Position numbers and translations under genes: made by a program
Notes under the pieces: model-generated
Told to the model about the DNA's origin: nothing
Database searches by the model: none
What the model saw: only the letters and a program-made list of their open reading frames with translations
Origin: Ectocarpus siliculosus
Taxonomy: Eukaryota > Sar > Phaeophyceae > Ectocarpales > Ectocarpaceae
Direction: 5' to 3'
Assembly: GCA_000310025.1 (NCBI GenBank)
Contig: FN648454.1
Location: 60,720 to 112,507, forward strand
Length of the DNA stretch: 51,788 nucleotides
In this document: positions 1 through 24,545 of the stretch, piece after piece
Layout: each line of letters starts with the position of its first letter
Position numbering within the stretch: position 1 is the stretch's first letter

Positions 1-190
1 CACCCCCTTGTGGAGTCTCTTTGGCAGGCAAGGTCGGACACCTTGGTGAACCCAACCAAGGCCTCGAAAGGGGAGAGTATTTTTCGAGACCTTGGTTGGG
101 TTCACCAAGGTGTCCGACCTTGCCAAAGTCTCCACAAGGGGGCGCGGGCATCCGGCACATTGGGGAAGGGGAGTCGACCTCCACCTGTGA
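1..190. mobile_element. Foldback MITE, left end cut by window edge
   Basis: Positions 3-145 form a long imperfect hairpin: the stretch around 12-66 is the reverse complement of that around 93-141, with the centre near 70-90. The outer right end (about 165-190) reads GTCGACCTCCACCTGTG. The same arrangement and end sequence occur at 29423-29658, so this is one family of non-autonomous palindromic elements. No coding potential is seen. Comparison with the matching intron of septin copy B (near 15570) shows that the flanking sequence from about 192 is shared while the element is absent there, so it was inserted into intron 1 of septin copy A. The target duplication cannot be read because the left end is missing. 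Confidence 0.75.
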
Positions 191-724
191 TACACAGCAT
201 GTCCATATGCGGTACGACCACGAGTAGCCTCGGAGTACTCCGGATTCGAAATATGAAGTCCCGCCCCAACTTCGTGAGAAGGAATGATGTTAAAGGCGTG
301 ATGCGATTTCTACAGTACGGAATGGAGAATTGGCTCGAGGGTGCCCCGAGGGTGAGTCTACGTTAACAACAACTCTCTTGCTTCCTTTTTATGTGGCAAG
401 TACCTACACTGCATGTAGGCACATGACTGCACAGAATGGAGCACCAAGTTTTTGTTTTTCCCTCTTGCACGAAACTGCGGAATACGTGTCTCGCAACAAC
501 CTATCGGGAGATAAGTGTGGTGATGGCTCGGCGGAGATAGGGCTTAAATATTTCCCCCGGCTCTTTTCGCTTCAATGACGATGTACTGCTGAAAGACTGT
601 AGGTAATATTCAGTGCGAAAAAGCAGGTAGTGACCACTCCCCCCTTGCCACCAAACCTTTGTGACCACTCCCCCCGTGCCACCGAACCTTTCCGTTTGAT
701 CGGTACTGTTTGTTGCTCCTCCAG

Positions 725-3700
725 ACGACATTCCTAAACAACATATTCCGCCATCTCAACCAAGGCGAAGACCCCATGGAACAGGCTTCTGTCGTGCGTG
801 GGCAGACAGGACGCGTCTTAGGCCACAGCAAGACGCTCAGGATCGAAGAACGCAAATTTGACCACACCACTTCTGACGGCCAGTGCTACAAGTTCTTTTT
901 GGTGGTGCGGATGTCAAAGCCGCGTATCACAATGCTCCCGATTGTAGTGGATTTCGCGGTTTGGCAACGGACGATCATTCACCTCTGGTAGTCAAGCAAG
1001 TCCTACTAATAATGTAGAACGATGTCCTACGTCTGTATGGGTGTCATCGATTGTGCCGTAGCCTGCATGCTTCTGTCGCGGGTGTCGATGTCCGAGGATA
1101 CCCACTACCGACGACCACTCACTTTTTGGGACGCACTACGCCGTCTTGATGGCCTCCCCGCAACCAAGACGTCTCAACCGACTGTACATCTCGGCAGGAC
1201 ACCCCCGGATATGGCGACCATGTGAACGTCCGCAAAAGCTTCCAACCAGTAGTTGATTTCATCACCAGCGGGAGCAGGAAATACCTGACCGAGGTTATGG
1301 GGGGCAATGACACTCCGTCGGAAGACGGCAGGACGGATGTTTGGTGAGTTGAGATTCAATGCACAGGCGGTCCTTCCACCAACTGCTCTGCTCGGCGTGC
1401 GAAACGATGCTAAAATTTGTTTCTCATGCAAATTGGTTGAAGGAGGTGATGAAAATGATTGATGACATGGTGTTCAGCAGATTCACTGTATACTAGATGT
1501 TCAAACAACACCCTCATTAGTGATGTTTTCGCCTGAGCTGCAACCGATCGGTCGCGTGCCCCTGGATCACGCGTTTGCACGACCATTTCTGACTCAAGAT
1601 GTGCCCCGATCGTGTTCTGCCGGACCTACAGCATATACTTTATCGCAGCCCATCGGTGTAAGCCCATCGACATCGAATACATGAAGCAGCTTTCCAAGGT
1701 GCGGGACAGGAGATTGACAGGTCAACTCTTATGAGATATGACAGCCGAATCACCGCCAACACAGAATCTAGATCGAAAGGCAGGACAGCTCGTCACGAGT
1801 CTAGGTTGTACACAATGTGCTGCCGTCGCGTGATGGCCGGTTTTGATCCTGCCTGAAGACTATCAGTGCTTCGGGACATTTGTTGCGAATGGCTTGGCCT
1901 TGCTCCACGGTCGGTTTTCGTAACCGAGCGAGAGACGCAGTAAGTTCGTTCAGCTCCTCCCCGCCTTTTGCTCATCCCCGTTTTGCGCAGGTTGTTGCTG
2001 TGATTCCCGTGGTAGGGAAGTCCGACAGCATGACGGTGGACGAGATGATTGGCTTCAAAAAGGCCATCGTTGACTCGGCCGCCCAGGCTAACGGAGTCGA
2101 GTTCTTCAATTTTTCGGGTGGGTGATGTTTCGGACGGGACGCAATGGTGGCTCCGTGGTGACACCACGAGCCAGCTCTCCAGCACCCTTGTGAGGCCAGG
2201 GGTTAGTTACTTCCACCTTTTGTAGGTTTCCCGTTTTTCAAGATGTGTCACTTGAATGGCTGATTGACAGTAGAGTGGCGTTCATCCCTGCCCCCGCTGC
2301 TCAACGATAATGTCGGGCAGAGCGGGCATGGGGAAAGTGCCTGGGAGCCCTGAACATCGCCGATGAGCCCATCTGGCTGGGCGAGAGGCGGCCACCGCCG
2401 TACGCGGTGATCTCGAGCCAGGTGGACGACCCCAACGGAAACGCTCATGCTCCCGATCCAGTACGCAGGTTGTATTGCTGTGGTCGAGCCCGTGCGTGTC
2501 TGGCCTGTGCAACCAAAAACTGACTTTTGGCGTCTAATTCGCATAGTGCATCGATTTCGAACGTATTGCGTTTGTGGGTCATGGGCTGGGACCTATCACC
2601 TCCAAACAAAGTCCCCGTGACTCACCAAAGTCTAACGGCTCATCTCATTTCCGGTCGCACCAATGACCCTGGTCTGACAGATATCCGTGGGGTGACTGTC
2701 ATGTCATGAGACCGGAGCACAGTGACAATACTTACCTTCAGTGTCTCCTTCTGGAGGTGGGGTTCCAGGACATGAAGGACGAGATGAGGAAGCGGTATGA
2801 AGCCTTCAAAACGGAAGAGGTTCGAACAAGATGCGGCAACTCACCGACTTCCTCGGATTTTCGTGTCTTCTCGAAACCCTCGGGGAGACAATTTTGTATA
2901 TCGATCAATTCATTTGGGAAATATGTACACCACCAATTTGTCGTCGGTAACATTGTATCAGAGCCCGTGGGTGTCATCTGTTTGAAATAATTTCTCGGTG
3001 TGACCTGTCGAAAACGGTTAGTGCAGCGTGTGAACCAGGGGAGTCGACGTTTCGACGGTGTCCCACCATCAACGTACTCGACATTGGTTGCGTCTCAATC
3101 AGAAATGTCGGTGTTGCTGTAACGATCTTCCCCACTCGTTCCCTGCCCCCTCACCTCTTACAGGCGAAGCCTCTCGTGATAGTGATTGGAGAGAAAATTC
3201 GGGAGTATCGCCATCCCATTGCCTCCGGCAAGCCGTCGATTCTCTTTGTGGTTCTGGCGGTGATTTGCGCCATAGTGGCGGTGATTCTCGCACACACTCA
3301 GGTACACAAGGTGCTAGAGATCCGCCCGTTTGCATGCTTGAGTGCACCCTAGACTGATTACTGCTTCGTTAGATCATTCAGTACATATGTGGCATGATAG
3401 AAATAGTCGCAGTGGCATTTGGCTCCTCCATCGCGACTTTGAAATCGGTTGGAAACACGGAGGCCTGAAGACCAACGATGCCGTTGTAATCACACCGATA
3501 CCGGTTTCTCAGGGATACTGTGTGAACGGAAACGAGCCTTCCACGGGCCTGGCTGATTGGAGCGAAGTCATTCTCAAGATTCAGCAGGTGACGTGACGTC
3601 CTGCTAAAAGTGCCTTTCCGTGCATGTGCACACCAGTTATTAATTTGACGAGAAGATTACGTTGCAAACCAACGATGTGTGAGTCTTCCTGTCTCGTAGT

Positions 3701-5122
3701 GCGTGACGCTCATCAGCGCGTAAAGTGGGTTCATTCACCAGCTTCCTTCCCGATACACTCTCTAAACAGCTGTAAACGGCTTTGAAACCTTTTCCCGGGG
3801 GATATCTTGACAGCTCGAAGGATCGGACCGCATCTTGACGGCGATAGACCCCGGGGAGGAACCTCTGTACGTCCTCATGGAGGTGCTGATGGACGACCGC
3901 AAGATTTGGACGGAAACCTCCGAGGAGGCCCAGGTCGGTATCGCCATCTTTGCTCAGAATATCACGGTTTTTTCACTTGTTGACCGTGGAGAAGAGGGGG
4001 TGCTGAGACAAGAGTCGATGGTCACGTTCACCGGATACTCCCAACAAGAACTAAAACGTGTGATTTCCGCGTTGTTCCCCATCTTGGTCTTTGCTCCGAC
4101 GTCTACCCGCCTCGTATCCACAGCAGGAAGCACCACTAGGGGCAAAAGCTGCGACAATTGGGAAGGATCCTGCCAACAAGGGAACCGATCGCCCTCAGGT
4201 TCCGGATAAACCAGCGACTCGGTCTGCCGGCACACGAACGAGTGGCTCCACCACCATACCCGATGATGGATCTTCGCGAAACAATCAATCTCTAGGGAGC
4301 ACGGAGGAGCCGACCAGCTCCCCCTCCACTGGCGATCCCGAAATCAAATCCAATTTGCCGGTGAACAGCATCTACTGCATCCTTGGATATTCGGCACTAT
4401 CGCTTCTCCTTGCAATCTGTGGCCTGGTTGTTTTGGTAGTCGCGGCCTTCTTGAAAGCCTGTAGCCGTGTGGTTTCCACCGTGTGTAAATGTTTGTCTCT
4501 CTTTCGCGAACGACGACGTGTGAACGCGTATCCCGGACGCCCTCATGGAGTTGCTAATGGAGCGCTAGGAGATTTGCGCGGAAGTCCCCGAGGAGGCGCA
4601 GGTCGGTTTGGCCCTTTTTGCTCAGAATGTCACGGTTCGTGTACGTTTGTTGAACGTGGAGAGAGTGCGGGTGGTGAGACAAGATACGATGATCACGTTC
4701 ACCGGATACTCTCAGCAAGCACGTTTACGAGTGTTTTCCGCGTCGTTCCCGCCTTCGTCGCTGCTACTTCGTCTACCCGCCTCTTACTCATTGTCAGGAT
4801 ACATCGCAAGGCGCAAAAGCTACAGTCGAAGAAGGGGACGCCAAACAGGAAGCAGATCGCCATGAATCAGCGGCAGGGCCTGCCGGCACATAAACGAGTG
4901 GCCCCACCACAACCCCAAATGGTGTTCCTCCGCAAACGGAGGAGCCCGTGGGGAACGCGAGGGAGCCGAACGAGTCCGGTTCCGCTGAATCGGATTGGTC
5001 GGGGACAATTTACCACTATCTGTGTGCATTTTTGCAACTCTCGGCTGCCGTTGCCCTTTGTGGGTGTGTTCTGTGGGGAGTGGGAGGTCTGTAAAGAAAG
5101 GTTGATTGCCACCTTGTGGTAG
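725..5122 (+). CDS. Septin GTPase, copy A (5' exon outside window)
   Basis: Septins are GTP-binding proteins that assemble into filaments at membranes. Exons read from splice signals and phase: 725-904, 1198-1343, 1632-1698, 1991-2117, 2321-2468, 2681-2819, 3164-3301, 3513-3587, 3814-3933, 4124-5122. The first starts just after the P-loop lysine codon, so the exon with GESGLGK is missing to the left. Seen: switch II/G3 DTPGYGD at exon 1198, G4-like GKSD in exon 1991, and the septin signature YPWG at 2682. Exon 3164 encodes a hydrophobic helix (SILFVVLAVICAIVAVILAH). Exon 4124 adds a Ser/Thr-rich linker and a second hydrophobic helix near 4365-4460. Exon lengths match copies B and C almost exactly and phases agree throughout. 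The last exon runs open to 5122 over a decayed duplicate, so the true C-terminus is uncertain; an alternative stop is 4209 if the 3934-4123 intron is retained. Confidence 0.85.
4538..5094 (+). pseudogene. Decayed tandem duplicate of the septin A terminal exons
   Basis: This stretch repeats 3860-4460 about 0.68 kb downstream: it contains a second copy of the end of exon 3814-3933, its intron, and exon 4124 with linker and hydrophobic end. In the frame of the original it is broken by TAG at 4566-4568 (where the first copy has AAG) and TAA at 4891-4893 (where the first copy has CGA). A duplicated acceptor (CAG at 4795-4797) and a hydrophobic C-terminus (YLCAFLQLSAAVALCGCVLW, then TAA at 5092-5094) are still visible. 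It is inferred to be a tandem duplication that lost coding function. A different reading frame across it is open to 5122 and may be translated as the tail of copy A. Confidence 0.7.
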
Positions 5123-5849
5123 CTTTTGTCGGTGCTCCGGTGAAGCATGATGCACAAATTTATGCCGCGTAAAGTTGTTGCTCACTGTCGTGGTATTCCT
5201 ATTGTTCGTCTTCGGATGACAAAAGGCCCGTTGTTAGCAAGTGTATGCACTATGCAGCATTAGGTAACCCGTCGTCCGAGTTGCACCTGGAAAAGGCGTG
5301 CTCAACCACTCACTTCAAAGTCCTTCCTTGAGAGGTTGCCACTATTTGTCTAATGTACGGAGTTTTAACGGTGCTTTTGTCTCACCTTTTCTCGCCTGTG
5401 AACCGCGAAGTATCTCCAGACCAAGCCGGATGTGCTCCACCATATACTTAGTTGCACATGTATAATAGGACGGCTAAACTACAGTGAAGTCACACCAGAC
5501 CCCATCCTTTTGCTGTTTGCGCTGGCGGTGGGGAGCTTCAGCCAGATGTTAACCAGACTATGCCTGTAGGGTTGGTCGATCTGCGGTGTCACCGTCGCCA
5601 GTCATGTCTTTCAAGAGTTGCGGCTAGGGTCTACCGTAGGCGCAATGCGCGTACTGACCTGTTTGTTAGGGTTTAATGACTCGTCGACCGGCCCGAGAAG
5701 GTACTGAAGGCATGGGGGCAGCATCTCGAAATAGCACGGTATCCGCTTAAACCACTCACCAGCGGTCAACGCCGTGTTGGAATGTCCAGCACAGCCAAGG
5801 CTCATTGTCGCCATTTATCCACCAAGTTGGCGTCACTGGAATATTTCTA

Positions 5850-6062
5850 GAACGTCCATGAAATGTTTCATAGGCTTCCATGATGAAATATTTCATGGAC
5901 TTCCACGGACTTCCATGGACATGGTGTCATGGAGTTCCATGGACTTCCATGAAACTTTTCATTTTTCCATGGACTTCCATGGTTTCATGGAAGTCCATGG
6001 AAGTCCATGGACTGGTTCCATGGCACGCCATGAAACTCCATGGACTTCCATGAAATATTTCA
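5850..6062. repeat. Palindromic CCATGGA/ACTTCCATGG satellite
   Basis: The decamer CTTCCATGGA and its reverse complement TCCATGGAAG recur many times in both orientations, with TGAAATATTTCA blocks at both ends. The segment can fold into several alternative hairpins. It lies within the spacer between the septin copies. Frames crossing it translate to repeats of M, D, F, H and W only and are not treated as genes. Confidence 0.8.
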
Positions 6063-6089
6063 CTAAAAAATACTATAATGTAGATGATT

Positions 6090-6350
6090 GGGTTGTGACT
6101 GCCTCCCAACCTTTATCATCGGTGCTTTCACAACCAGGAGGTCTGGCCTAAGGTTGTGGCTGCCCCCCAACCTGTGTGATCGGTGCTTGCACAACTAAGT
6201 GGTATGGCCTAACGTTGTGGCTACCTCCCAACCTGTGTGATCGGTGCTTGCACAACCAAGAGGTGTGGCCTAACGTTGTGGCTGCCTCCCAACCTTCCGC
6301 ATCCGTCCGTGTACAACCAAGCCGTTTGGCCAAGGTTGAGGCCTCCTCCC
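6090..6350. repeat. Minisatellite, period about 61 bp, about four copies
   Basis: Units share GGTTGTGGCTGCCTCCCAAC, then CGGTGCTTGCACAACCAAG and GTGGCCTAAC. The two central units are almost identical and the outer ones have diverged. There are no spacers, so this is a direct tandem array and not a CRISPR. It directly follows the palindromic satellite. Confidence 0.85.
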
Positions 6351-7756
6351 AATCCCCCTCTGCAACCTGCCCCTACCTTGTGGATGCTCACAACCCACCC
6401 ACAACCTGCCCTCTGGCCACCCGTGCATGATCACCCTTGGTGCTGCAGCTGCCGGGTTGTGCAGTCTACGTGTTATGCCGAGATCGTTTACGCTAAAATT
6501 CAAATTCTTGGAAGCCGCCTGACACTTAGTCTCCTATTTTGCCGAGAAGATTGGAAAGTGTGTGCGAGTCAGCGCGTTCTAGCCCAGATGAAACAGACGA
6601 AGGCGCTCGGGACTTACGTCACAAAGGGAAGCTACTTCGGGGATAGATGACAAAGTCGAGGTGATCATGGATTTCACTCACACGATCGCACCATCCATGG
6701 TTCAAATCGCAGTAGCGGCCAATCACGCCCTTTGTCTACCTCGGGATCTGTTGAAAACAAATCTCCCGATTCGATTTTACCTTAAGTTGTTACGGGACAA
6801 CGGGTGAAAACTCCGGCGCCGCGCTCCGGGCCGAACTAGGACCCAGTATTACCGCCACTTGCTTGTGAATCGTCGAGGACAACATACACACTCGATTGCA
6901 TGTTCTAGCAAGACTGGATCTCGATGACATCGAGGGGTTTCGAGAAGAAGCTAAAATTCTCTCAAGAACAAGTGCCCCTGGGGGCTCCGCAACGATTCGC
7001 CTAAATATGAGAGCCGGGGAGCGGCGAAGCCGCTTTTCTTCCCTTCATCCCAGGATGGCAATAAAGGCTTGAAGTATCGGCCTCCTCCAACGCGATGCAG
7101 GGTGACAACACGGGCAACCGAAATTACCCTCCGTTTCTACCATAACACGATCTATAGGGCACTCATTGACGATTTATTGGTTTCTGAGGTGGAAGAAAGA
7201 TGGCCTTTTCGTCACACCGGTTTGGTGGTGCTCCGGCAAGAGATGGCCGTGCTATGTACATAGGCATCGGTCCAAGCCTTAGGCGGAGATCCCAGGGCAG
7301 AACGGCGCAACCCCGGCAGTTGTCAGCAACAAGGATTGCGATGAGCAAAGCGGAGATCCCAAACACCAATTCAAACCAGGAGAGACCGAGGTAGCACTCA
7401 ACTAGAAACGTAACGCTGCAGGGAGGAGCAAAACAAACACTGGCGGGGGAAGTACAGCATGGGTTTGCGCTCAGGCTCAAAATGCGGTGGGTTGGGACAG
7501 AGAACCGGGTCGATCGATAGAGAGAAAGAGGCAGACCGAATAAAAAGAACTGTTATGGGATGGTCAATGTCCCGCTTGTTCACAGGACGAAGATTCACAC
7601 ACTAGGCGGAGTCCATCATCGCTACATCCCCCCATTCATAGGCCGTGATACCACTGCTCGTATGCCAATAACGGTAAGTATGTGCACGGTGATCTGTACC
7701 TTTTTTTACTTCGCTTTAACGTGTCCACCTGCTTCGCATGTGGGAAAAGGTATTTT

Positions 7757-7796
7757 CGAGTGAAATGAATGAGTTTGTTTCAATTCATTTCACTCG
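7757..7796. repeat. Perfect 14-bp stem hairpin
   Basis: CGAGTGAAATGAAT at 7757-7770 is the exact reverse complement of 7783-7796, with a 12-base loop. No T-tract or gene lies next to it that would make it a terminator. It may be a relic of a small inverted-repeat element. Confidence 0.6.
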
Positions 7797-10700
7797 CAAA
7801 AGAATGAATAATGCGACAAACCATTTTGACAACACAGGTAGAAGAACTACCGCCGATGAAGTAACACACTCTAACCGAATCGTGGTCGTATTTTGGGCGC
7901 TAGTATACGCATGTTTCAAGCGTGTAGTGTAGCGTTCCGCTGTCGCGTACACTTCGACTTCGACCATCTCACGCATCTGGGCCTCTGAAACGTGCTACGA
8001 ATGAAAGGATATGAGTAATTCGCGGGATATGGATATGTACAGCAATACCTATGGTATTTGTGAATGAACTTATTGACCTGGAATATGCTCCTAATACCGA
8101 CTAATATAGAGGGGTACGAGCTGTATGTCAAACACATAGTGTAAACCCCGTTTCCTTGGGATACGGTTTTGCGACGCAAAGAACGACAGCCAGAGTGCTC
8201 TCGAGTGAGACGTGGTTATTGAAATTTTAATGCGAAACAGGCATCATACATGGACCCCGCCTTGCACCCACACCTGGGATGCATCTGACCTCTGGTCCCC
8301 ATCATCGCCGTCAATGCGACCCTCCGCTTGGAGGTCCATGTCTACACGTTAGGGAGGTGGGATCGTTCACTCGTTCCCTCCCGCGTCACGCGTGCATGTG
8401 GAGGACACAATTATTCTAGCATTGATTGGACCTTTGCCAATACTGCAACGTGATGGGTCACATCGTTCCAGCCGGTGTTGCGGGCTACGGGCAGATGGTT
8501 TTGTAAACGGGCCCGAGAGTAAAGGTGCTGTTTAGTATGCTGGTGTGGTATGCTCGTTGCTTGTTGTGTGCAAGGTTGGAGAAGGCAGTGTGCACATTCC
8601 ACGTTCACGTGTTTGAGGATGTGCGGAAGGGTTTTGCGGTATTGGCCCCCGCTCCTGTTGTTGTGATCGAGTCTTGTAGGCAGAGAGATCTAGGTGGTGA
8701 AAAGAAAGCCATCTACCCCGCCCATGGGGCACATGCGGCATCTACGCATGGTGCTTGTCAACGGATTGACCCAGTTGCTACAAGAACAAGTATTCCACTG
8801 CTTCTTTTCAACATTGGGATGGAGAAAAGAGTCGGTGTATCCCGCAAGGTTTATTACCCGCCCTAGGTTTCTTAGCTATAGGGTTCAAACCACATCCAAG
8901 GTTAGATGGCCGTCCGCACTATTACACCACCGACTTTATACAATAGGGGCAGGTACTGCGCCCGCGCCCCCCATGGGGCAGGCGGCCAACATGCGACGGT
9001 AGGAAGTATCGGTGAAGTTGAAGTGGGAATTACACGGGTGTGTCTACAAGCTCCGTCCATACCCTCGAAGAAGGTGGGGATGATGTGGAAACTTCCTGCC
9101 CCCCAGCGACATTCAAAGGAAGTACGGTCTATTGTACACGATCTGAAGAAGACGGTTTCACATTTGCTATCTAGGTTCGAAGATTGTTGTCGCAACAGCG
9201 CGCGAAATTCCCGCCGGCAGACCCTCCTTCGTGGAAGCCACTCTACGTAAAAGGAACGTGTCAAAACTCTGAAAGAGTCAGTTTGGTAAGGAAATGTCGA
9301 AAATGTACGTAGTGGTGGTCAAAAGCTTGCTACCGATACATCGCCTTCACACGAGGGAACAAAGTTTCATCTACGGTAGCAGTCTGTTTCGTTCAAGGCC
9401 ACGTGTTCAGTCTTTCTCTCAAGTCCTGCACCCTCTCTTATTTACAGAAATCCTGCCCTGGTTCGTGTCTACAGTATTCCCCTCTACAACGCTTTCCGGG
9501 TTCCATGGTTCACTATGTACGGTACACTTTCAACTCTACACTACACCAAGATATCTCCTCTTTATGCACCTGTTGGCGTTTTTTTACGTGCGCCGCTGTC
9601 CGAATTTCTCTCGCCCCCCCCCCCGGCAACGGAACCCACCCCTTCATGGCTTCCCCCTCTCGTGTGTTTTGGTGCTTCCACCCAAATCTCGTCCTACCGT
9701 CTTGTGTACACGTGTATCGTTCGTCCCCCATGGTACTTCCCGTTGCATTGCTTTGGCCGCGTAAAGAATCAGGCGTGATATCGTGTGGTGTTCGAAGGCC
9801 TAATCATGCCACAAGCTTTCAACAGGACACAACGAGTCCTTCTATGTACCCTGCGCGGACCACGTTCACAGCCCAGCACGTGCATTGCGTCTACGGTAAG
9901 CCCTAGCCGTAATCCTCAAACAGAACGACTGGCGACAGTGATACTCACAACTCGACCACCTCAACATTGACGGATCCCACCACCAGTGTAAGCGGCGAAA
10001 CGATGGGGCCCCGATAATCTTCGACGTTGTTTCGCCGGCCTACAAATTCAATAATAACGTGGAAAACATCTGGTTTGAGACGGAGATACGTTGAGGTTCT
10101 AAAACCTGGAGGGTATGACTCCCTCGTAGACCATGTACAGCGCAAGCGAGGATGGGGTGGTCGAGCATGCCTTTGCAGGTGTAACGCAGACGATGGGGTG
10201 TCTCAACCCACCCAGACAACTTGCCTTTGTCATTCGAAGACGAAAACAAGGATGGAAATCTACTCATACGTCGCGCTTCACAACAGCGGTGTGACAATAA
10301 CTCCCACACGGTACTAGCTAATCGCACGGCGACAGACGGTCAAGCACGCCTCGGCCGCCCACACAGTCAGATCGAGCAGTTCAGAGAAAACCGCGATTGC
10401 TTCCGAATCCCAAATCCCGCAGAAGAAATCATCGAAGAATGTCACCACTGCATCGAAGGTGTTCCTTGCTTGCCGATTATGCATGTTCCTCAGAAATCCA
10501 ACAAGCACCAAGAACGCCACCACTGCTGCGGAGTAGCCAAGGTTGTGAAACATCACACTGCTACAGACTTTCAAGAGAGTCGCGACTGCCCAAAGAAGAA
10601 GGCCGTCCAGCACTGAGAAAGTCATGGCTCCTATCCAACCACCAATGAAGCAGACACCGTTTTCCACGAACTCCTCGAAACGAAAACCGACATCGAGGGA

Positions 10701-11717
10701 GCCAGTGGAGTTGGGCCATCGCAGTGTGTTTCGATAATTCCCCAAATGCCAATGAGTACCAAGAAGGGCGCGACTGCTGCCGAACAACCAATGCAATACA
10801 AAACACTTTTGATGGTGACTACCCACGATTTGGATTCAGTCTCTTCTTGATCGCCAGCGGATTGGGGACCATTCGACTCCTTCGTGTCCTCCAGAGACTC
10901 CTTCTTTTGCAAAGGAACATCGTCGGGTATCGTGGTGCTTGTGTGCCGACGGACAAAGTCGCTGCTTCCGTCTCAAACGGAGGGTGGTCCGTACCCTTTG
11001 CCGCGCCGCCTTCTTCTTCGATTGTCGCGGCTTCTGGACCTGGTGGTGTGTCCTGTTTATGGATACGAGGCATGTAGACGACGGAGCAACGGCGAAGACG
11101 GGAACAACGCGGAAATCGCTCGTTTTCGTTCTTGTCGGGAGTATCCGATGAACGTGATCATCGTACCTTCTATCCGCACGCCCCCCTCTCCACGTCCCGC
11201 AATCACAAAAACCGTGATATTCTGAGAAGAGATGGTCAGACCGACCTGCACCTCCTCGGAGGTTTCCGTCCAAATCTTGCTGTCCTCCATCAGCACCTCC
11301 ATAAGGACGTCCAGGTGTTCCCCCCCTGTGTCCACCGCCGCCAAGGTGCGGTCCGATCCTTCGAGCTGTGTCAAAATTGGCACCGACGAGAGCGATAATC
11401 AAAGACCTTTACAGCTGTAGCGAATATATATGTATGGGATCGGAAGCTATACAATACGCGGGCCTACGTGAAGCGCTGCTGAGCTTTGCACACTATGGAT
11501 GGGAAGACGTTTCTGTCGTTGGTTCGCGACGTGATCGTTACCACGCGTAAACGATCTCGGGAGGGCATCATGCACTGAAGGGTCCCAGTTGCAGCACGCC
11601 ACTCACTCGCTGGATCGTGAGCATGACTTCGCTCCAGCCGGCCTCGCCCATGGAGGGCTCGACTCCATCCAGGCAACGTGAGTGCACACCCAATAACCCT
11701 GAGAATAACGGCATGTT

Positions 11718-12375
11718 GGGGTTAATCGGTAAAATTAGACCATCCGACTAGTCAGCGCTGACTAGTCGGATGGTCTAATTTTACCGATTAAGAGATACGN
11801 NNNNNNNNNNNNNNNNNNNNNNNNNNNNNNNNNNNNNNNNNNNNNNNNNNNNNNNNNNNNNNNNNNNNNNNNNNNNNNNNNNNNNNNNNNNNNNNNNNNA
11901 ATTTTACCGATTAAAAGATATGCTCAGAGCTCGTTAGCACCCCGCCGGATCACATGGGCTTGAGGCTTTGTGGCTTAATCACTGGGGTTGAGATTAGGGA
12001 TCTCCGGGGCTTGCCCCTCACCAGACGTTGCTATTTGGTAAAACAAAAGGTGTTTTTGTCGAAAGTGGACCATTGGGAATCGAGCCCGTGCGTGTAACTT
12101 GGTGTATGAACGCTTTGACCATTGAATCACTGACGGAATCCCAGTGGTACACTTACAACATAATCATCATTTGTTTACCAAACAGCAACGTCTGGCGAGG
12201 GGTACGCCCCGGAGATCCCTACTCTCAATCCCAGTGATTAAGCCACAGAGCCTCAAGCCCATGTGATCCGGCCGGGTGCTAACGAGCTCTGAGCATATCA
12301 TTTTATCGGTAAAATTAGACCATCCGACTAGTCAGCGCTGACTAGTCGGATGGTCTAATTTTACCGATTAGGGGT
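11718..12375. mobile_element. Composite inverted-repeat element with palindromic tips
   Basis: The element spans 11723-12370 and is flanked by GGGGT on both sides (11718-11722 and 12371-12375). Each end is a nearly perfect palindrome of 66-68 bases (11723-11790 and 12305-12370), both containing GACTAGTCAGCGCTGACTAG at the centre. Inside are long inverted arms (about 11917-12042 against 12173-12299) that start GATATGCTCAGAGCTCGTTA. The centre near 12045-12170 is unique and has no recognisable gene. Copy A lacks the insertion at the matching intron. It looks like a non-autonomous DNA transposon whose terminal repeats are themselves hairpins. Confidence 0.75.
11800..11899. other. Assembly gap of 100 N
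   Basis: Exactly 100 N, so a gap of arbitrary recorded length. The sequences on its two sides (TTACCGATTAAGAGATACG and TTACCGATTAAAAGATATG) are near duplicates, which suggests the assembler broke at the palindromic tip of the surrounding element and may have duplicated or lost part of it. Confidence 0.95.
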
Positions 12376-15300
12376 TGCAACGACATCTTCGACCTTCAGG
12401 TTCTGTGTCTCTACCCGAGAATGAAGTCGCAATGGAGATGCCAACGCCGCTACATGTACATGATGGCAATTTTTATGCCACGGACCCTAGGTTACCCACA
12501 TCTAACGAAGCAGCCATCTAGGCTGCACTCAAGGCATGCACCCGCGACACCGGGCGGATCTCTACATAGCACCCCATATACCTGAGGGTTTGCCACATTC
12601 CCCGCCAGCAACGCGCATATCGCCGTCAGCACCACAACGAGAATCGACAACTTGCCGCCGGCAACTGTTCGACGATACTCTGGCATGTTTTCTCCAATCT
12701 TTTTCACCAGAGGCTTCGCCTGCAAGACCATGACGCAGTGTTAGGGGGAGTGAGGAGGATGAGTATAACGACATGCACACTCTAGTTGAGACGTGACCAA
12801 TGTTAGCACTGTAGAAACGTCGACCCCCCTGTTCCCTCGCTGCAATAGCTCTGTTCGACCGTCGATAAACCTATTGATTGAAGTAGTGTCCAACAATTGT
12901 CACTCAGTACTTTAAACAAGGCACCCACAACATTTGGTGGTGATCATTCATGCCTAATTGAAAATACCGATGTTGTGAAACGAAGCCTCCAAAGATTGCC
13001 GGAAGACAACTGCGAGCAACTCCAGTAGCTGCAACTTCTTCAGCAGGCTCAAAAACTCTTCCCTCCTGAAGGCTTCATACCGCTTCCTCATCTCGTCCTT
13101 CATGTCCTGGAACACCACCTCCAGAAGGAGACACTGAAGGTAAGTATTGTCACTGTGCTCCGGTCTCATGACATGACAGTCACCCCACGGATATCTGTGA
13201 GACCAGAGTCATTGGTGCGAAACGAGACGAGACAAGCCGTTAGACTTTGGTGGGTTACGGGGACTTTGTCTGGAGGTGATAGGTCCCAGCCCGTGACCCA
13301 CACAAAGCAATATGTGCCAAATTTGTGCAATACATAGATTGAACGCCAAAAGTCAGTTTTGGTTGCACAGGCCAGACAATCACGGGCTCGACCACAGCAA
13401 TACAACCTGCGTACTGGATCGGGAGCATGAGCGGTTCCGTTGGGGTCGTCCACCTGGCTCGAGATCACTGCGTACGGCGGTGGCCGCCTCTCGCCCAGCC
13501 AGATGGGCTCATCGGCGATATTCAGGGCTCCCAGGCACTTTCTCCATGCCCGCTCTGCCCGACATTATCGCTGAACATCGGAACAGGGATCAACGTGACT
13601 CTGCTGTTAATCAGCCATCCACATAACGGGGTGGCTCTGTTGTTGATCAGTCATAAAGTGACACGTACTGAAAACAGGAAACGTATAAAAGGCGTAAGTA
13701 CCTAACCCCTAGCCTCCGAGGGGGCTGGAGAGCTGGCTCGTGGTGTCGGAGATCTGGCTCGTGGTGTCACCAGGGAGGCACCACCGCGTCGGAAACACCC
13801 ACCCGAAAAGTTGAAGAACCCGAGCCCATTAGCCTGGGCGGCAAAGTAGGCGATGTCTTCTTTGAAGTTAATCATCTCGTCCACCGTCATGCTGTCGGAC
13901 TTCCCTACCACGGGAATCACAGCAACAACCTGCGCAAAACGGGGATGAGCAAAAGGCGGGGAGGAGCTGAACCAACTTACTGCGTCTCTCGTTGGGTTAC
14001 GAACACCGACCGTGGAGCAAGGCCAGGCCTTCGTGGCAAATGTCACGAAGCACTGGTGGCCTTCGCGAAGGATCAAAACCGGCCATCACACGACGGCAGC
14101 ACATTGTGAACAACCCAGACTCGTGACGGCCTGTCCAGCGGTTCGATCTAACTCCTGTGTTGGCGGTGATTCGGCTGTCATATCTCACAAGAGTCGAACT
14201 GTTACTCTTCTGTCCCGCACCTTGGAGGGCTGCTTCATGTATTCGATGTCGATGGGCTTGCACCGATGGGCTGCGATAAAGTACACGCTGTAGGTCCGGC
14301 GGAACACGATCGGGACAAATCTTGAGTCAGAAACGGTCGTGCAATCACCTGGCCCAGGGGCACACGACCGCTCGGTTGCAGCTCAGGCGAAAACATCACT
14401 AATGCAGGCGTTGTTTGAACATCTAGTATGTAGTGAATCTGCTGAACACATATCACCAATCATTTTCATAATCTCCTTTCAACCGATTTGCATGAGAAAC
14501 ACTTTTTAGCATCATTTCGCATGCTGAGCAGAGCAGCTGGTGGAGCGACCGACTGTGAACTGATCTCAACTCACCAAACATCCGTCCTGCCGTCCCCGAC
14601 GGAGTGTCGTTGCCCCTTAAATCTCAGCCCTTTACCTCCTGCTCCCGCTGGAGATGAAATCGACTACTGGTTGGAAGCTTTTGCGGACGTTCACGTGGTC
14701 GCCATATCCAGGGGTGTCCTGCCGAGATGTACACGTCGTAGTTGAAAGGAGGCCATCGAGACGGCGCACTGCGTCCAACAAAGAATGACCGTCAGTAGTG
14801 GGTATCGTTGGATATCGACACCCGCGACAGAAGCACGTAGTCTACGACACAATCGATTATACCAATACAGATGTAGGATATCGTTCTGCAGTAGTAGGAC
14901 TCGCTTGACTACCCGTGGTGAATGATTGTCCGTGGTTGCCAAACCGCGAAATCGACTACAATCGGCAGCATTGTGATACGCGGCTTTGACAACCGCACCA
15001 CCAAAAAGAACTTGTAGCACTGGCCGTCAGAATTGGTGTGGTCAAATTCGCGTTCTGCGATCTTGATTGTCTTGCTGTGGCCGGAAATGCCTCCTGTTTG
15101 CTCATGCACGACAGAAGCCTGGTCCATGGGGTTTTCGCCTTGGGTGAGGTGCCGGAATATGTTGTTCAGGAATGTCGTCTGTAGGAGCAATAAACAGTAC
15201 CGATCAAAGCAGGTTTGGTGACGGGGGCGAGCGGTCACAACGGTTTGCTGGCAAGGGGGGGAGTGGTCAAGAGCATGCTCTTTCGCACTAAATATTCACA

Positions 15301-15964
15301 CTACATCACATCCATTGAACTGAAACGAAAGAGAGGGGCGATATTTGCACCCTATCTCCGCCGAGTCGCCACCACACGTACCCGCCGATCTGTGTAGTCG
15401 CGAGAGGTATTCCGCAGTTTCGCGCAAGAGGGAAAACCAAAAACTTGGTGCTCCTTCATGTAGTGCTAATTCACGTGTACGTACCTGCCAAAGGCAGGGA
15501 GACATAAGTTTGGCTCTCCAAGGAGTTGGAGCGAGGCTACTCGTAGTTGTACTGCATATGGACATGCTGTGTACATCCCAATCAGTTGCCATTAGTTGTG
15601 GCGACGTTTCGTCAACGAGAGGCATAGACCATAGTATAGCCTAAGGGGTCAACTTTCCCACGCACACACGCACATCGCACTCACAAACTCTCATACCCAT
15701 CCACCGGGTACTGACCTTTCCGAGGCCACTCTCGCCCGCGACCATGACTCGTAGCTGGTTCGGCGCTTGCCTGCTTACAGGATCTCCGGGTCTGCGCGGG
15801 CCATTTTGGTGGCTTGGAGAAACAAAGGAACCATCCGACCTGGCGATTGGGAAGTTCATGATTGTGAGCAGAATGTACCCGAGCGACTCCAACACTGCTG
15901 TAGGGGCAATGACTGAGACAGCGGTGTGGCGATTGCTCGGTGGAACATCACTAGGATCGTCCAT

Positions 15965-16691
<727 letters not shown>

Positions 16692-19600
16692 ATGCCTCCT
16701 AACACAACTGTAGGAACTGACCCCTGCATGGCCTCCCCCGTTGTGGGCGATCCTCAAGCCAAAGACGGTGGGAACGCACCCAGTGTGCGGGTACCAGGAC
16801 CTCCACAGCAAAGGCCAACACCGGACCAGCTACGAGTCATGGTGGCGGGCGAGAGTGGGCTAGGCAAGGCAAGTCCGGAGCCCTGTTGGCATTGGCGCTG
16901 CTTTACCGTGGGCAGCATGAGTTCGCCCTCATGGCGCTGTACGCCCGCCGTGAGCAGATCAACCGCGTATTTGTATTGTCTCGTCCGTGTCCTTGCATAA
17001 CTGCATGTGGTACAAGTATTGCTTCATGGGCAGGAAAAGTTGTGCCGAACACACACCTCATGCGTCATGGTCTGTTTTTCAGACGGCAAAGAATTTTTTC
17101 TCCCTAGTTCATAGAGCTGGACAGGGTTGAGCAAGTTTGAGTACTATAGTTATTTATTTCTATATGGAAGGTTCTTTTCTGGGCGAACGGGATTGCCCCT
17201 CTGCGATGCATACTGTACCGTCTTGTTTATTTGAGCGACGAACAGGTTTCCCCCTTGATGTCTTGCTTTTGTTCTTCGGAACGAGCGTCTGCTTCAACTG
17301 TAAAAGGAGGGGCTCCAGAGTTGACGATTGCAGCGAAAGTTACCAAATAAGATGCGCCGAAACAGCTACTTGTCGAAGCGTTCAGAGTCTGCTGCTTATG
17401 CGACTTCGAATGTGCACCCTTGCGTGCATATGGAAGGATAATAGGTACTTTCCCGAGTCGCGGAGAAGGACATGGGTTTTTTCTGGCACAGCCACATCCC
17501 TGTAAACGTTGCACCTGCCTTCTCTGAAATCCGTAGGCACCAGCACGTGACGGTTATTCGGTACGCGTATCGCAGAGGCCTCTACTTTCGCCCGCCCGTA
17601 CTAAATACGTTCAACGAAGCGCGCCTATCCAATACCACAGATGGGCACACCTCTCTCGAAACCGTGGTGAGCACAACCTATTGTGCTCATCGTCTCACCG
17701 CCGTTCTCGGGCGTCAACCGCGTTAACCCTCCCCACCCCCTGATGATTGTTTGCCGATCGATCCACACCACGCCCAGACTACTTTCCTGAACAATATTTT
17801 TCGGCATCTCAATCGAGGCGAAAATCCTATGGACCAAGCTGCCACCGTGGTCCAGGCGGCAGGCAGAGGCGTTTTCGGCAACGGCAAGACGCTCCGCATC
17901 GAAGAACGCGAGTTTGATTACAAAACCGAACGAGGACAAGACTACAAGTTCTTCTTGGTGGTGCGGCCTCATGTTCATGAATTGGTTAGGGGTATGCTTG
18001 GTGTTTTGTACGTTTTTCCACCAGTCGGTATTGGACTGGACGTGCATAACAATCATAGGAATCCACTAGTTCACCAATGTACCCACAATTCCAAATGTTT
18101 CCGATAACGCCCACATGTTCTTACAGTGTATGTTGGATCTTGGTAACACCCGACCGATTGACGATTCGCGTCGACCCAGCGTGTTCATACCTCCGCGAAA
18201 AAATCACAGTACACGAATTACCGCATGACGGGTTTCTTGCCTCGTTTTTGCAGGACACCCCTGGGTACGGCGACCATGTGAATGTCAGCCAAAGCTTCCA
18301 ACCGGTGGTGAATTACGTCATGAACGGGAACAAGAGTTACCTGGAGGAAGTGATGAAGGGCAACGAGACACCGGAGAAGGACGGCAGGACGGACGTCTGG
18401 TTAGTGAGAAAAGTACTACGGTCTGTTCCTAACAACACGGCACACAACCATGATTCTTGAATTGCTGATCGCTCCCTAGCCCGTCTGTTTCATGTCGCAA
18501 ACGTTCCTCTTTGTGTGTCAAACAGGCTGATGCCAGTAGAAAGCTGATGCCAGTAGAAGATAATCCTCGTCTAAAACCGACACACCGCCGCGCAAACGTG
18601 CATCGTTTCAGACACCTGGAACGTGGTTGGCTACGGCTACTGCTACAGTAGTTGTGTCACGGCTGGTTTAGGTTTGGCCACGTTTTGACTACTAAACGCT
18701 CGTTGCTGTTGTGCCATCGCAGCATATACTTCATTGCTGCTCATCGATGCAAGCCCATCGACATCGAGTACATGAAGCAGCTCTCCAAGGTACCGTCGGC
18801 ACTCCGTGAGGGCAATAGATTGACCGATCTCTTCTATCAGGTCGTACAGCCGAAGTACTTTTGTCGCAGCAGAGTAGTCAATCGTCGAGATGTGGTCGCC
18901 AAGCAGATGAATGGTGTCTGGACTATTGTGCTGCCGTTACCTCGCGGTCGTCATCACGAGACCTCTAGTCTGCATGTACGATGGCATATGTACGTGATTT
19001 AGGGGGATTGACCTGACGTTGCCGCGGTGGTCTGGTCGTCGCGGGCGGCATCGTATTGTGAAATTGCGCCCACCCTGCTTTCGCAGGCTGTGGCCGTAAT
19101 CCCCGTGATCGGTAAATCCGACAGCATGACGGTGGACGAGATGAAAGAATTCAAGACGGCCATCGTCGACCTTGCTGCTCAAGATGATCAGCTCAAGTTT
19201 TTTCAGTTCTCGGGTGGGTGGATCTAGAACGGCCTTGTCTCAGCCCAGCGGCAACTCAATCTTGTGCCTCTTCACATGTAGTTCCTGGTTTTGATTCTTC
19301 CATTCGCGTCCTGACCGGCAGAATATCGCCCAATGCACGGGGAGCTATTTCGCGTTTTTTTGTCCCGGCGTTTGCTCTTTTTTACTCGGTATTAACTACC
19401 CTGACCTTTTGCCCGACCCTGTCCCCTGGCCCAATCAGAGACGTCATGGAATGAATGCAAGGGAGCCCTAGGACCCACTGACCCACCCAACTGGCTGGGA
19501 GAAAGGCAGCCGCCCCCTTACGCCGTGATCTCGAGCAAGGTGGACGAGTCCCACCGGGGTATCCGTAGCCCCGCACGTAGGTAGGTCGTGTGACCGCTGG

Positions 19601-22106
19601 GCGTAACCATCTCGACGGAAAAATAACCAGATCATGGGGTTTGTGCTCACCAGTACTTTCTTTTTTCTGCCATCCAATTTTTCTCGACATGGACCCTTGC
19701 ACCTTTCGGTACAATTTCTGGACGCACGACCGGAAGTCACACAGGAGGAAGGCCCCACAGGAGTGTTGTGCTCCCCCTCTGTTCTGTGGTGCTTGCCTGA
19801 ATTCCCGTTTCGAGAAGGATGCAGCGGTTCCTTTCCCTCGTCGACCATGGAGACAAATTATTGTGCACACACGAAAACATCAATCTCCACATTGTTTGGG
19901 CATATTGTGAGAACAGTCCCAGCTCGCGTGACTGCGCCGAGCTTCGAACCCAGGTACCGAACCTCCGAAGGTTGGGAGATTACCTACTGAACCAGTCAGC
20001 CACTATTGTTTGTGTCGACTGAACTGTAGACAATCATCCGACATTTGATCTTTGCACGAGCCATACCTCAAATCTACCACAGCTAGACTAAACGTTCGCG
20101 ACTCCATACACACACAATGTTGCCGAATGATAGGTACCCGTGGGGCACCTGCCACGTCATGGAAACGGCGCACAGCGACAACACCTACCTGCAATGTCTT
20201 TTGCTGGAGGTGGGGTTCCAGGACATGAAGAAGGAGATGAAGACGCGCTACAAAGCTTTCGTTAAAGAGCAGGTGAACGGATACAATGATATCCCCGTAT
20301 CTTGAGGAGTGTCGTAGAAGCCAAAAAGTTGGTACATGCTCAAGGTTACACTTACACGTGAACCAAATCGTTTCTCTATAACCGTCGCCGATTCAATTGA
20401 CGCTGTTGTAGAAATGTCATAAAAGGCATCCTAGACTAAACACAACCAAGAATACAGAGAAGACAACGGATGGGAAATGAAACAACGGACATATTTCGGT
20501 TGTGTTCCTGAAGCAGAACCCTGACTAACGAAAACACACTTAACGAACAAGTACGAGAGAACCAATAGATACCGCGGCCTGTGCCAACGACACATCATTC
20601 TCGGGCAGGAAAAACGAATGTGTCGAGCCAGCTCCGCTCCAGACCAAACGTGTGAGATCGCCACACGTGAACACGAAAGTCGCGCAACCAAAAATTGTGG
20701 ACACTTTGTTGACCAACTCTGACAGTACACGCTTACATAGTTCACGAGACCCTAATGTGTAGGTTAATGTTTCACCGGCCATGCTTTTTCTCACGTGGTG
20801 TGGACTTAACCATGGCAAACATCGCCGTCCGTTGTGTAGTATCCTTGAGACGGTTCCTATAGCATCATCTGCGCTCAAGAAGCGGTTCTACGTCGCCAGG
20901 GAAGGGTAATGGGTTGAATGGCCAGCGGGGGAGCTATTGATATCTCTTTCTAATGTCCAGAACTTCGTGTTTCTTCATTTCCAGACAAGGCCTACAACGG
21001 AGGTTACCGTCGACGCTATCAAGCGCCTTCCTCGCTGGGTTGCTCACAAGGTTCAGGGTCGCGGTCGCAAGTCCGTTCTGGTCCTGATAAGTGCGGTGGT
21101 CTGCGCCTTGGTCGCGGTGGTGCTGGCGCACCTTCGTTGCGGGGTGAGACGCTTTGATGCGCTTTTCCGGTGTTGTCTCGGTACCGTCTCATATGAGGAA
21201 GATCCTGGTCGCCAAGGAGGTAGCGGAGTAGTTTTGCGAGACCGACTCTTCTCTCTCAAGTCATCGTGCTTATTTCAGGTTGTCCGAAGCACCGTGCACC
21301 TTGAAGAATCGCATGCACTTGGCCCATCAACGTTACAGGTCAACGGTACCCCCCCGATCGAGGGGGGAGGCATGTACAACCCTCCCGAGAGCCTGGCCAA
21401 CTGGGCCAAAGTCATCGAAAAAATTCAGAAGGTGAGCTACTGGTTGTCGCGCTGCATACGATCGGTGAGGAAAGACGCACGCTACAAGAAGCTGGCCATG
21501 TACATACGGGCTCGGTTGTCGCTAGGGATAACCCTGCTCCTGAAGATGATATTGGTCCTGAAAGCTGAGTTTCTGGTCGTAGATGGAACACACTGATGTT
21601 CACGGTGCATCCGAAGATTTACTAATACGAAATACATGAAGACTACATACTATGTATTTGCATCATTGTTGGAGGCCGGTGCCATGGAGAACAGATCCCG
21701 AGCACGTACGGATGTCGTAGGTCGTCACGCTTGAGGGCACGAAAGAGGAACAGGGGAGTAGTACGTGAGCACGCCGAAAGGTGGAGGCGTTCGCAAACGT
21801 TGATATGTGTTGTTTTCGTAGCATGCACCTGCCGAGTTAGCCAGCCTACTCAGCGTCCAAAAACCGAACGATTTATCGGTACTTCGCCGTGACGTTATGG
21901 ACTCGCAGCTCGAAGGATGGGACCGCATCTTGGCGGCGGCAGACTCTGGCGAGGAGCACCTGGCCATCCTCATCGATGTGCTCATGGAGTACTACAAGAA
22001 TACAGAGCTGCGCAACAAGGCACAGGTCAGCAAAGCCCTGATTGATGTGTGCACGAATGAACAAAGCCACGGGCAAGGGCATTTTGTATTGCACCTATCT
22101 ATATGA
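16692..22106 (+). CDS. Septin GTPase copy C with C-terminal membrane helix
   Basis: Ten exons: 16692-16868, 17778-17960, 18254-18399, 18723-18789, 19087-19213, 19439-19580, 20134-20272, 20985-21143, 21279-21431, 21909-22106. They sum to 1491 bases (496 residues) and every junction agrees in phase. Seen: P-loop GESGLGK (53-59) completed by TT in the next exon, DTPGYGD (121-127), GKSD (200-203; AKAD in typical septins), the septin-unique YPWG (282-285), and a transmembrane helix (about 357-377). The G1, G3 and septin signatures make the family assignment firm. The first intron has a GC donor (AAG|GCAAGT), where copy B has GT. The tail after the helix has no clear coiled coil and ends at a TGA, unless the CAG|GTCAGC at 22025 is spliced as in copy A; no matching downstream exon was found. 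Expected to bind GTP and assemble at a membrane; this paralogue appears intact. Confidence 0.9.
19899..20004 (-). repeat. tRNA-derived short element in a septin C intron
   Basis: On the minus strand a tRNA-like fold can be drawn: acceptor strands GTGGCTG and CAGTCAC pair over seven positions (one G-U), a D-arm-like GGTTCAGTAGG follows, then an anticodon-like stem, then GGTTCGAAGC in the T-arm position. Two extra bases separate T stem and acceptor, so it is probably not a working tRNA. The element is flanked by the direct repeat ATTGTTTG (19891-19898 and 20005-20012), as expected for a retroposed copy. It lies within intron 6 of septin C on the opposite strand. Confidence 0.55.
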
Positions 22107-23263: not shown

Positions 23264-23311
23264 CGCTAGCGTTTCGATCAAGGGAGTGGCCGCTGTGTCT
23301 ACGCGCGCAAG

Positions 23312-24545
23312 ATGCCGGATGGAGACGGACGACAGCCTCCGGGGGGACAAGGTCATGGTGACCCTTCCCCGGGAGAAGGCATCGGCGATGGAGGAACCAA
23401 CTATTCGTTCACCGCCGATGCAGAAGAACAAGACAATCTGGGAGGGAGAGCGGCGGCGGGGGGAGATCAGCAAGACTCGATGCGTCAGCTGGTCGACCTT
23501 CTCAAGCATGCTTTCACGGCAAACTCCCAGGACCAGGGGCATCGTGCCCATTCAGGCACGTCTAGCGCCCACACCGTAGAGTTGAAACAGCGGGAGAAAG
23601 TCGAGGTCCCTGTTTGGAGTGATGATTTCCTCAAAAATCGATCGATGGAGGTTGCGTTGCGGATTTTCACGAGTGTGTTTGAAGCATGGATAGAGAACGA
23701 GGGAGTGGTTGACGCAATGAGAGGCCCAGAGATTCCTGTAGCTGCAGCTCAAGTTAATGTGGAGTGGCTGAAACGTTCGTTTGGTGAGGAGAGAGTAAAG
23801 CAGTCTAGGAAGGTATGGATTTTCATGCTGTCGAAGATCACGGCACAATCTATTCAAGGGTAATTGCTCGCAGCGGAGAGCCCGCAAGCAGGGTACAAAA
23901 TTTCCTTGGACTACTACCGACGCAGTAAAAACGAGGAGAGGCAGACGTTTGATGATCAGTGGAATGTGCTGTGTCAGAGAAATGGAGAAAGTTTGATGGA
24001 CTTCTTCGGTAGAGCTAAGGCGCTTTGGATGAGACTGGTGTCATACGGTGATAATCGTGCTGAGGTGTCCATGTGCAAGCACATCGCTCGGGTTTTTTTG
24101 CCAGAGTTTGAGAGAATTAAAGAGCGTGTCCTGTTTCACCCCATGTTGTCGAGTGCACAAATGCAGGAGGCGTTGAGGACGGCTGAGCACGAGCAGAGGT
24201 ACGAGCGGAGGTCTGGAGAGAGAGAAGAGGAGACGAGGCACGCCCTCGTCGCTGCCGGCATGGGCCGGGGCGGCGGGCAGAGGAGACCAGCCGTTGTCGG
24301 AATGGGTCACGGCGGGCAGCAGCAGCAGCAGCAGCCACAGGCGTCGATGCAGCCACCGCAGCAGCAGCAGTTGGTGGCGACGCGGGCGGCGGTTGACCGG
24401 CGGCGGTCCCCGTCACAGGCGGCCACGGGAGCGGCGACACGGCGGCACCAGGCGAAGGTGCAGGCCATGACGCAGGCCCCGGTGGCGGCGGCGACGGCGA
24501 CGGCCCGGCGGCGGCAGCAGCGGGCGGCGGTGGAGCGGCAGCAGT
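23312..24545 (+). pseudogene. Copia gag, interrupted by a stop
   Basis: The frame opens at ATG 23312 and runs to a TAA at 23861-23863, then continues in the same frame from 23864. The second part resembles the UBN2-like gag core of Copia elements (WNVLCQRNGESLMDFFGRAK) followed by a helical region rich in E and R. From about 24240 it becomes low complexity (Q, A and R rich). The zinc-binding part expected next is absent on this strand and is found inverted near 27630. Capsid-forming role is known for the family. Confidence 0.75.
24391..24545. repeat. Left inverted-repeat arm at inversion boundary
   Basis: About 150 GC-rich bases encoding A/R/T/Q-rich gag sequence. They recur nearly unchanged as the reverse complement at about 27640-27790, marking the left edge of the inverted segment. 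Confidence 0.85.

Follow-up and report, generated by a model that had tools for sequence, protein, structure and literature searches.

The septin genes in a stretch of the Ectocarpus siliculosus genome (contig FN648454.1, positions 60,720 to 112,507; 51,788 nucleotides, hereafter the window) raise the question of whether the septins of this brown alga may be fastened to a membrane by a hydrophobic helix located after the GTPase domain. The initial annotation had claimed that three paralogues, here copies A, B and C, keep such a helix at a fixed exon position, and this was borne out: the exon in question (exon 8) is located at 3164-3301 on the forward strand in copy A, at 12719-12582 on the reverse strand in copy B and at 20985-21143 on the forward strand in copy C, in each case directly after the exon encoding the YPWG motif. 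Further copies (D to I) and a relic (J) were detected in the genome (189 Mb in 492 contigs covered by the searches). We put the probability at about three in four that these genes encode genuine algal septins with an arginine finger, similar to Group 7 of Delic et al. 2024 (PMC11238149), in which a helix on its own exon after the GTPase would anchor the septin in a membrane.

The Pfam Septin model (PF00735, cut-off 26.2 bits) was matched over its whole domain by copy C (176 bits), copy E (170 bits) and copy A without exon 1 (134 bits). A search of the PDB returned 44 distinct sequences with E values up to 0.001, each of them named as a septin or as a septin subunit of yeast (CDC3, CDC10, CDC11, CDC12, SHS1); human SEPT7 was the best match (E value of 6e-36), and the Chlamydomonas septin 5irr was matched too. 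The motifs GESGLGKT (G1), DTPG (G3), GKSD (G4) and YPWG are present in C, E and F, and all of them save G1 are present in A. The arginine of an AHR motif (AHRCKPID) was found in all seven loci with an exon 4 (A to G), broken copies included. This arginine directly follows an invariant histidine, aligns with the small residue after the histidine (His-Gly) of human SEPT7, and has the position given by Delic et al. (PMC11238149) for the arginine finger of algal and ciliate septins. Two of the proteins also narrowly passed general P-loop GTPase models (C: GTP_EFTU, 27.5 with a cut-off of 26.5, and MMR_HSR1, 22.5 with a cut-off of 21.9; E: MMR_HSR1, 22.0), which speaks for a Toc34-like or GIMAP-like paraseptin of an organelle outer membrane instead of a septin, as does the C-terminal anchor of Toc34. 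Furthermore, such GTPases have also been reported to have an arginine finger (PMC11238149). However, the scores with the Septin model were far higher (134 to 176 bits, with the whole domain covered), no AIG1-type family was listed at an E value of 0.001 for any of the three proteins (C, A and E), and the YPWG motif is present, which makes a paraseptin highly improbable. It is possible that a true septin is located at an organelle membrane.

Exon 8 was found at eight of the nine genome places (A to I) where the YPWG exon was detected, the census of the family being based on a genome search with the YPWG exon and additional searches with exon 8, with exons anchored by tblastn. It is flanked by AG and GT in all eight copies, and its length is 138 (A, F), 159 (C) or 180 (E) nucleotides. 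The exon of copy C was correctly placed by the initial annotation, with AG before it, GT after it, and phase 0 on entry and exit, and it encodes the hydrophobic helix SVLVLISAVVCALVAVVLA at 21072-21128, with a basic flank on the N-terminal side. The phase 0-0 exon of copy A, also with AG/GT flanks, encodes the helix SILFVVLAVICAIVAVILA at 3236-3292. The best predicted insertion energy of exon 8, calculated with the scale parameters of our own script in a way that differs from TMHMM and Phobius, was below zero in all eight scored copies (-2.45 in A, -0.68 in B, -2.36 in C, -2.30 in D, -2.70 in E, -2.57 in F, and -1.91 in both H and I), and outside exon 8 no segment of models A, C, E and F, as far as exon 10, scored below +4.7. 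With the same script, glycophorin A had an energy of -1.50, helix A of bacteriorhodopsin -1.05, and ubiquitin +6.8. The 19-residue Kyte-Doolittle mean of exon 8 was 3.27 in A, 2.49 in B, 3.01 in C and 2.41 in E, and at least 3.0 in all six copies besides B and E. As a chance baseline, 935 chunks of fifty residues were taken from the six reading frames of the window, those of the septin exons included; 21 of them had an energy below zero and two had a 19-residue Kyte-Doolittle mean of at least 2.6, a mark under which exon 8 of B and E falls. In copies A, C, E, F and H, the 19-residue core contains none of the residues D, E, K, R, N, Q, H and P; copies D and I were judged by eye. Exon 8 is predicted to encode a helix that spans the membrane and lies outside the GTPase.

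The helix starts 24 to 36 residues beyond the end of the YPWG exon and is followed by 58 to 74 modelled residues, more than a classical tail anchor has. In all five models analyzed (A, C, D, E and F), the 15-residue flanks contain three to five Lys/Arg on the N-terminal side and none or one on the C-terminal side. According to the positive-inside rule, the basic flank of a membrane helix faces the cytosol, and therefore the GTPase domain would be in the cytosol. By the charge-weighted score that Delic et al. use, a basic amphipathic 18-residue window before the helix also passes in five of five models (D of 1.02 to 2.66), but it was set aside and given no weight, because it contains proline in three of the five and charge dominates this score.

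Exon 7 ends and exon 9 begins in phase 0, as exon 8 itself does at both ends, and therefore skipping of exon 8 would preserve the frame and could yield an in-frame soluble isoform. The hydrophobic exon might then be a cassette that is skipped in most transcripts, in which case the working protein would be soluble and the membrane form minor. A precedent is the transmembrane septin of Caenorhabditis elegans, UNC-61, which is a transcript isoform (Perry et al. 2023/2025, as cited in PMC11238149). However, phase alone does not set exon 8 apart, since exons 2, 9 and 10 share phase 0-0, and the splice sites of exon 8 are kept in eight of eight copies. Predominant skipping is an unlikely explanation.

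The genome contains both intact and damaged members of the family. Copies E and F are located on the same contig (C10); E is open until a stop six residues beyond exon 10, and F is open through the helix, but its frame changes in exon 10 and again in exon 11. Copy B, on the reverse strand of the window, retains exons 1 to 10, with part of exon 1 and its P-loop (GESGLGK) at 15716-15796, exons 2 and 3 at 14579-15178, exons 4 to 7 at 13056-14283 and exon 8 at 12582-12719 (read 12719-12582). It is broken by in-frame stops and a length change in exon 3, by the loss of the GT after exon 7, and by a frameshift in exon 11. For this reason B is a poor third witness of the helix, and E and F are better ones. 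Copy G (contig C488) has a stop in exon 7 and GTPG in place of DTPG. For copies H and I (contigs C236 and C310), exons 1 to 5 were not found in approximately 4.3 kb upstream. Relic J (C10 at 3408061) retains exon 8, along with a decayed exon 1 and remnants of exon 11; its exons 2 to 7 were not found. Among 216 stretches in viral contigs that fit a pattern, none encodes a relative.

Selection was estimated from the GTPase exons of six loci in nine pairs, with B excluded as broken and H and I as truncated. The synonymous divergence between A and C was 1.30 in these exons. The ratio of nonsynonymous to synonymous changes (dN/dS) was 0.16 for A-F, A-C, A-E and C-F, 0.14 for E-F and 0.30 for C-E, and it was higher in pairs with damaged copies (0.51 for A-D, 0.42 for C-G and 0.36 for E-G). 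Exon 8 gave a different picture, and several results weigh against a functional anchor. The dN/dS of exon 8 was 0.83 for A-F, 0.55 for A-C, 0.73 for A-E, 1.06 for C-F and 1.36 for E-F, and that of C-E was 5.87, from 1.5 synonymous changes only, suggesting weak constraint on the sequence of exon 8 taken as a whole, with little purifying selection. In addition, five of the nine loci (B, D, G, H and I) as well as relic J are damaged or truncated, exon 8 was not found at one of the nine YPWG loci (G), an Asn was gained in the exon-8 core of copy B, weakening its hydrophobic segment, and the insertion energies depend on the script and scale parameters mentioned above.

What appears to have been kept is the hydrophobicity. 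The dN/dS was lower in the core of exon 8 than in its upstream part for A-C (0.30 vs 0.58) and A-E (0.49 vs 0.76), but not for A-F (0.86 vs 0.83) or C-E. Nucleotide identity between C and E was 79% in introns, 92% in GTPase exons and 86% in exon 8, and between A and F it was 79%, 89% and 85%, respectively. Exon 8 is conserved above the introns, but its residues change freely, and there is moderate evidence that hydrophobicity is what is retained. The probability that random substitution would introduce no D, E, K, R, N, Q, H, P or stop into the 19-residue core was 0.24 for A-F, 0.24 for C-E and 0.05 for A-C; over the tree, with each branch counted once, the neutral probability of the kept core was roughly 0.01 by our arithmetic. 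In a second simulation, based on predicted energy, five pairs drawn from A, C, E and F had probabilities between 0.004 and 0.14, while the values for A-H and A-B were 0.11 and 0.28. The initial annotation had argued for a function of the helix from its conservation across diverged copies; the position of the helix is indeed kept despite the divergence, but B is broken, A is without a P-loop exon in the window and the dN/dS of exon 8 is high. Because of the state of B and A, the case for a function is carried by C, E and F more than by the three copies of the window.

These results also bear on whether the family is mostly decaying, with the helix a leftover without a present function. The damaged loci, the relic, the frame change in exon 10 of F, and the dN/dS of exon 8 near or above 1 in several pairs are consistent with decay. 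On the other hand, the GTPase exons are constrained (0.16 for A-F and A-C, 0.30 for C-E), C and E are open throughout their models, and the hydrophobic core is kept in A, C, E and F where neutral change would seldom have kept it. On balance, a leftover helix in a mostly decaying family seems quite improbable.

Copy C has a complete 10-exon model with consistent phases and AG/GT flanks everywhere but at the GC donor after exon 1. On the forward strand, exon 1 (16692-16868) contains the start codon and the P-loop (GESGLGK), and it is followed by exons 2 to 7 (17778-17960, 18254-18399, 18723-18789, 19087-19213, 19439-19580 and 20134-20272), exon 8, and exons 9 (21339-21431) and 10 (21909-22025). 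The frame encodes 450 residues; its continuation past 22025 adds 26 residues, with a stop that ends at 22106. Longer versions of exons 9 and 10 were rejected, as E has stops there and the acceptor of A lies further in. A long CT/GA simple repeat (approximately 16330-16520) is located directly upstream of this copy.

Copy A, also on the forward strand, was modelled from tblastn anchors, AG/GT flanks and phases as exon 2 (725-904, TTFLNNIF to KFFLV) and exons 3 to 7 (1198-2819), the latter being exon 3 (1198-1343, DTPGYG), exon 4 with the arginine finger (1632-1698, AAHRCKPID), exon 5 (1991-2117, GKSD), exon 6 (2321-2468) and exon 7 (2681-2819, YPWG and the last helix), followed by exon 8 and by exons 9 (3513-3587) and 10 (3814-3933). 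Its P-loop exon was not found within the window and may be located in a run of N that stops immediately upstream (L016 7408-8720). Exon 11 (4124-5122, with a provisional 3' end) is an open frame that is joined in frame via a GT-AG intron and overlaps a degenerate repeat of exons 10 and 11; it encodes a second hydrophobic helix (approximately 4385-4453; energy of -3.18), followed by basic residues. The initial annotation had reported extra hydrophobic segments in both A and B. One strong segment in A was found, whereas those of B lie behind the frameshift in a gene with in-frame stops. The stretch that matches the second helix of A is frame-shifted in D and F, leaving this helix without an intact full-length second witness, and in H and I the matching frame stays open.

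Copy D is located beside A on the same contig in inverted orientation, with 96% identity to A over 4.57 kb and a stop in exon 3. Together they form a head-to-head inverted duplication with 96% identity (C72:52000-61500 in L016 plus window 1-4600), with the run of N between them ending at the start of the window. The degenerate tandem repeat of exons 10 and 11 downstream of A is at 4569-5122, and exon-11-like repeats are found downstream of D and F as well. In copy B, exons 8 and 9 are separated by an insertion (11722-12370) similar to a miniature inverted-repeat transposable element, with nested inverted repeats (143-nt arms with 93% identity and 75-nt arms with 96%), a pair of almost identical perfect palindromes (70 and 64 nt), and a 100-base run of N inside. 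Beyond the septin genes, the window contains long open frames at 23270-24670 and in a GC-rich stretch on to approximately 28000; one of them is Gln-rich and possibly a retroelement gag, and two of these frames matched no Pfam family at an E value of 0.01. Elsewhere in the genome, which has 87 light-harvesting matches, contigs C92, C232 and C488, the last of which also holds the broken septin G, contain arrays of equal-scoring light-harvesting genes that are open over the whole domain. One antenna protein of this genome is identical to FCP17 of the giant kelp Macrocystis pyrifera (PDB 9YGV; PMC13219633) at 173 of 178 positions, in keeping with the genome of a photosynthetic stramenopile and most likely of a brown alga.

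Taken together, the gene models most likely describe a cytosolic arginine-finger GTPase that would be permanently tethered by a C-terminal helix. The septin GTPase would remain in the cytosol, and the helix would enter the membrane with its basic N-terminal flank toward the cytosol, so that about 70 to 100 residues of copies C and E would be on the far side. In A-type copies, the chain could return through the second helix with its basic end, bringing the C-terminus back. Such an anchor would keep the septin permanently on a membrane, either the plasma membrane or an internal one, and the arginine finger might let two subunits pair across the GTP site. A more specific proposal, which we offer as a speculation more likely wrong than right by a wide measure, is that the anchor is a splice cassette through which one gene would yield a soluble and a membrane septin by skipping of exon 8, that all paralogues keep the arginine finger and pair as active GTPase dimers, and that the two helices of the A type form a hairpin.

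The architecture itself is already known, because transmembrane septins have been reported by Delic et al. (PMC11238149) and, as cited there, by Perry et al. Among the 254 septins of the former study, 44% of the Group 6A members and 43% of the Group 7 members had transmembrane domains; Group 7 includes Ectocarpus and has the arginine finger in 91% (Table 2), and earlier notes on transmembrane septins are credited there to Wloga 2008 and Nishihama 2011. Like the Group 7 algal septins, the proteins described here combine the septin GTPase and the arginine finger with a transmembrane domain, which is found in part of that group; unlike them, here several clustered copies of one brown alga keep both the arginine finger and the helix. 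The animal transmembrane septins, such as UNC-61 of C. elegans, have a membrane-spanning segment too, in one isoform, but the helix here is C-terminal, whereas many opisthokont segments are in an N-terminal extension (PMC11238149). According to a 2026 review citing Perry et al. 2025 on animals (PMC13262245), predicted segments also occur in the C-terminal extension, in the human SEPT6 group. The Chlamydomonas septin (Group 6A, PDB 5irr) shares the arginine finger and a possible transmembrane segment (PMC11238149), but it is a single gene of a green alga. Among the matches listed in literature searches on septins of brown algae and stramenopiles, none was closer than Delic et al., and neither the helix exon nor a septin cluster of a brown alga was found to be discussed in these matches or in the passages of PMC11238149 consulted. 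The brown-algal family is a real new example of a transmembrane septin and not a new kind; possibly new is that the helix is carried on a skippable phase 0-0 exon.

The arginine finger was kept in seven of seven loci here, in contrast to many lineages in which it was lost following duplication, although Group 7 retains it in 91% (PMC11238149). To the proposal of an ancient C-terminal membrane anchor in septins, this family contributes a well-resolved example from a brown alga. Since the anchor is on one exon in a recently multiplied family, the question of anchored versus soluble septins is open to RNA reads.

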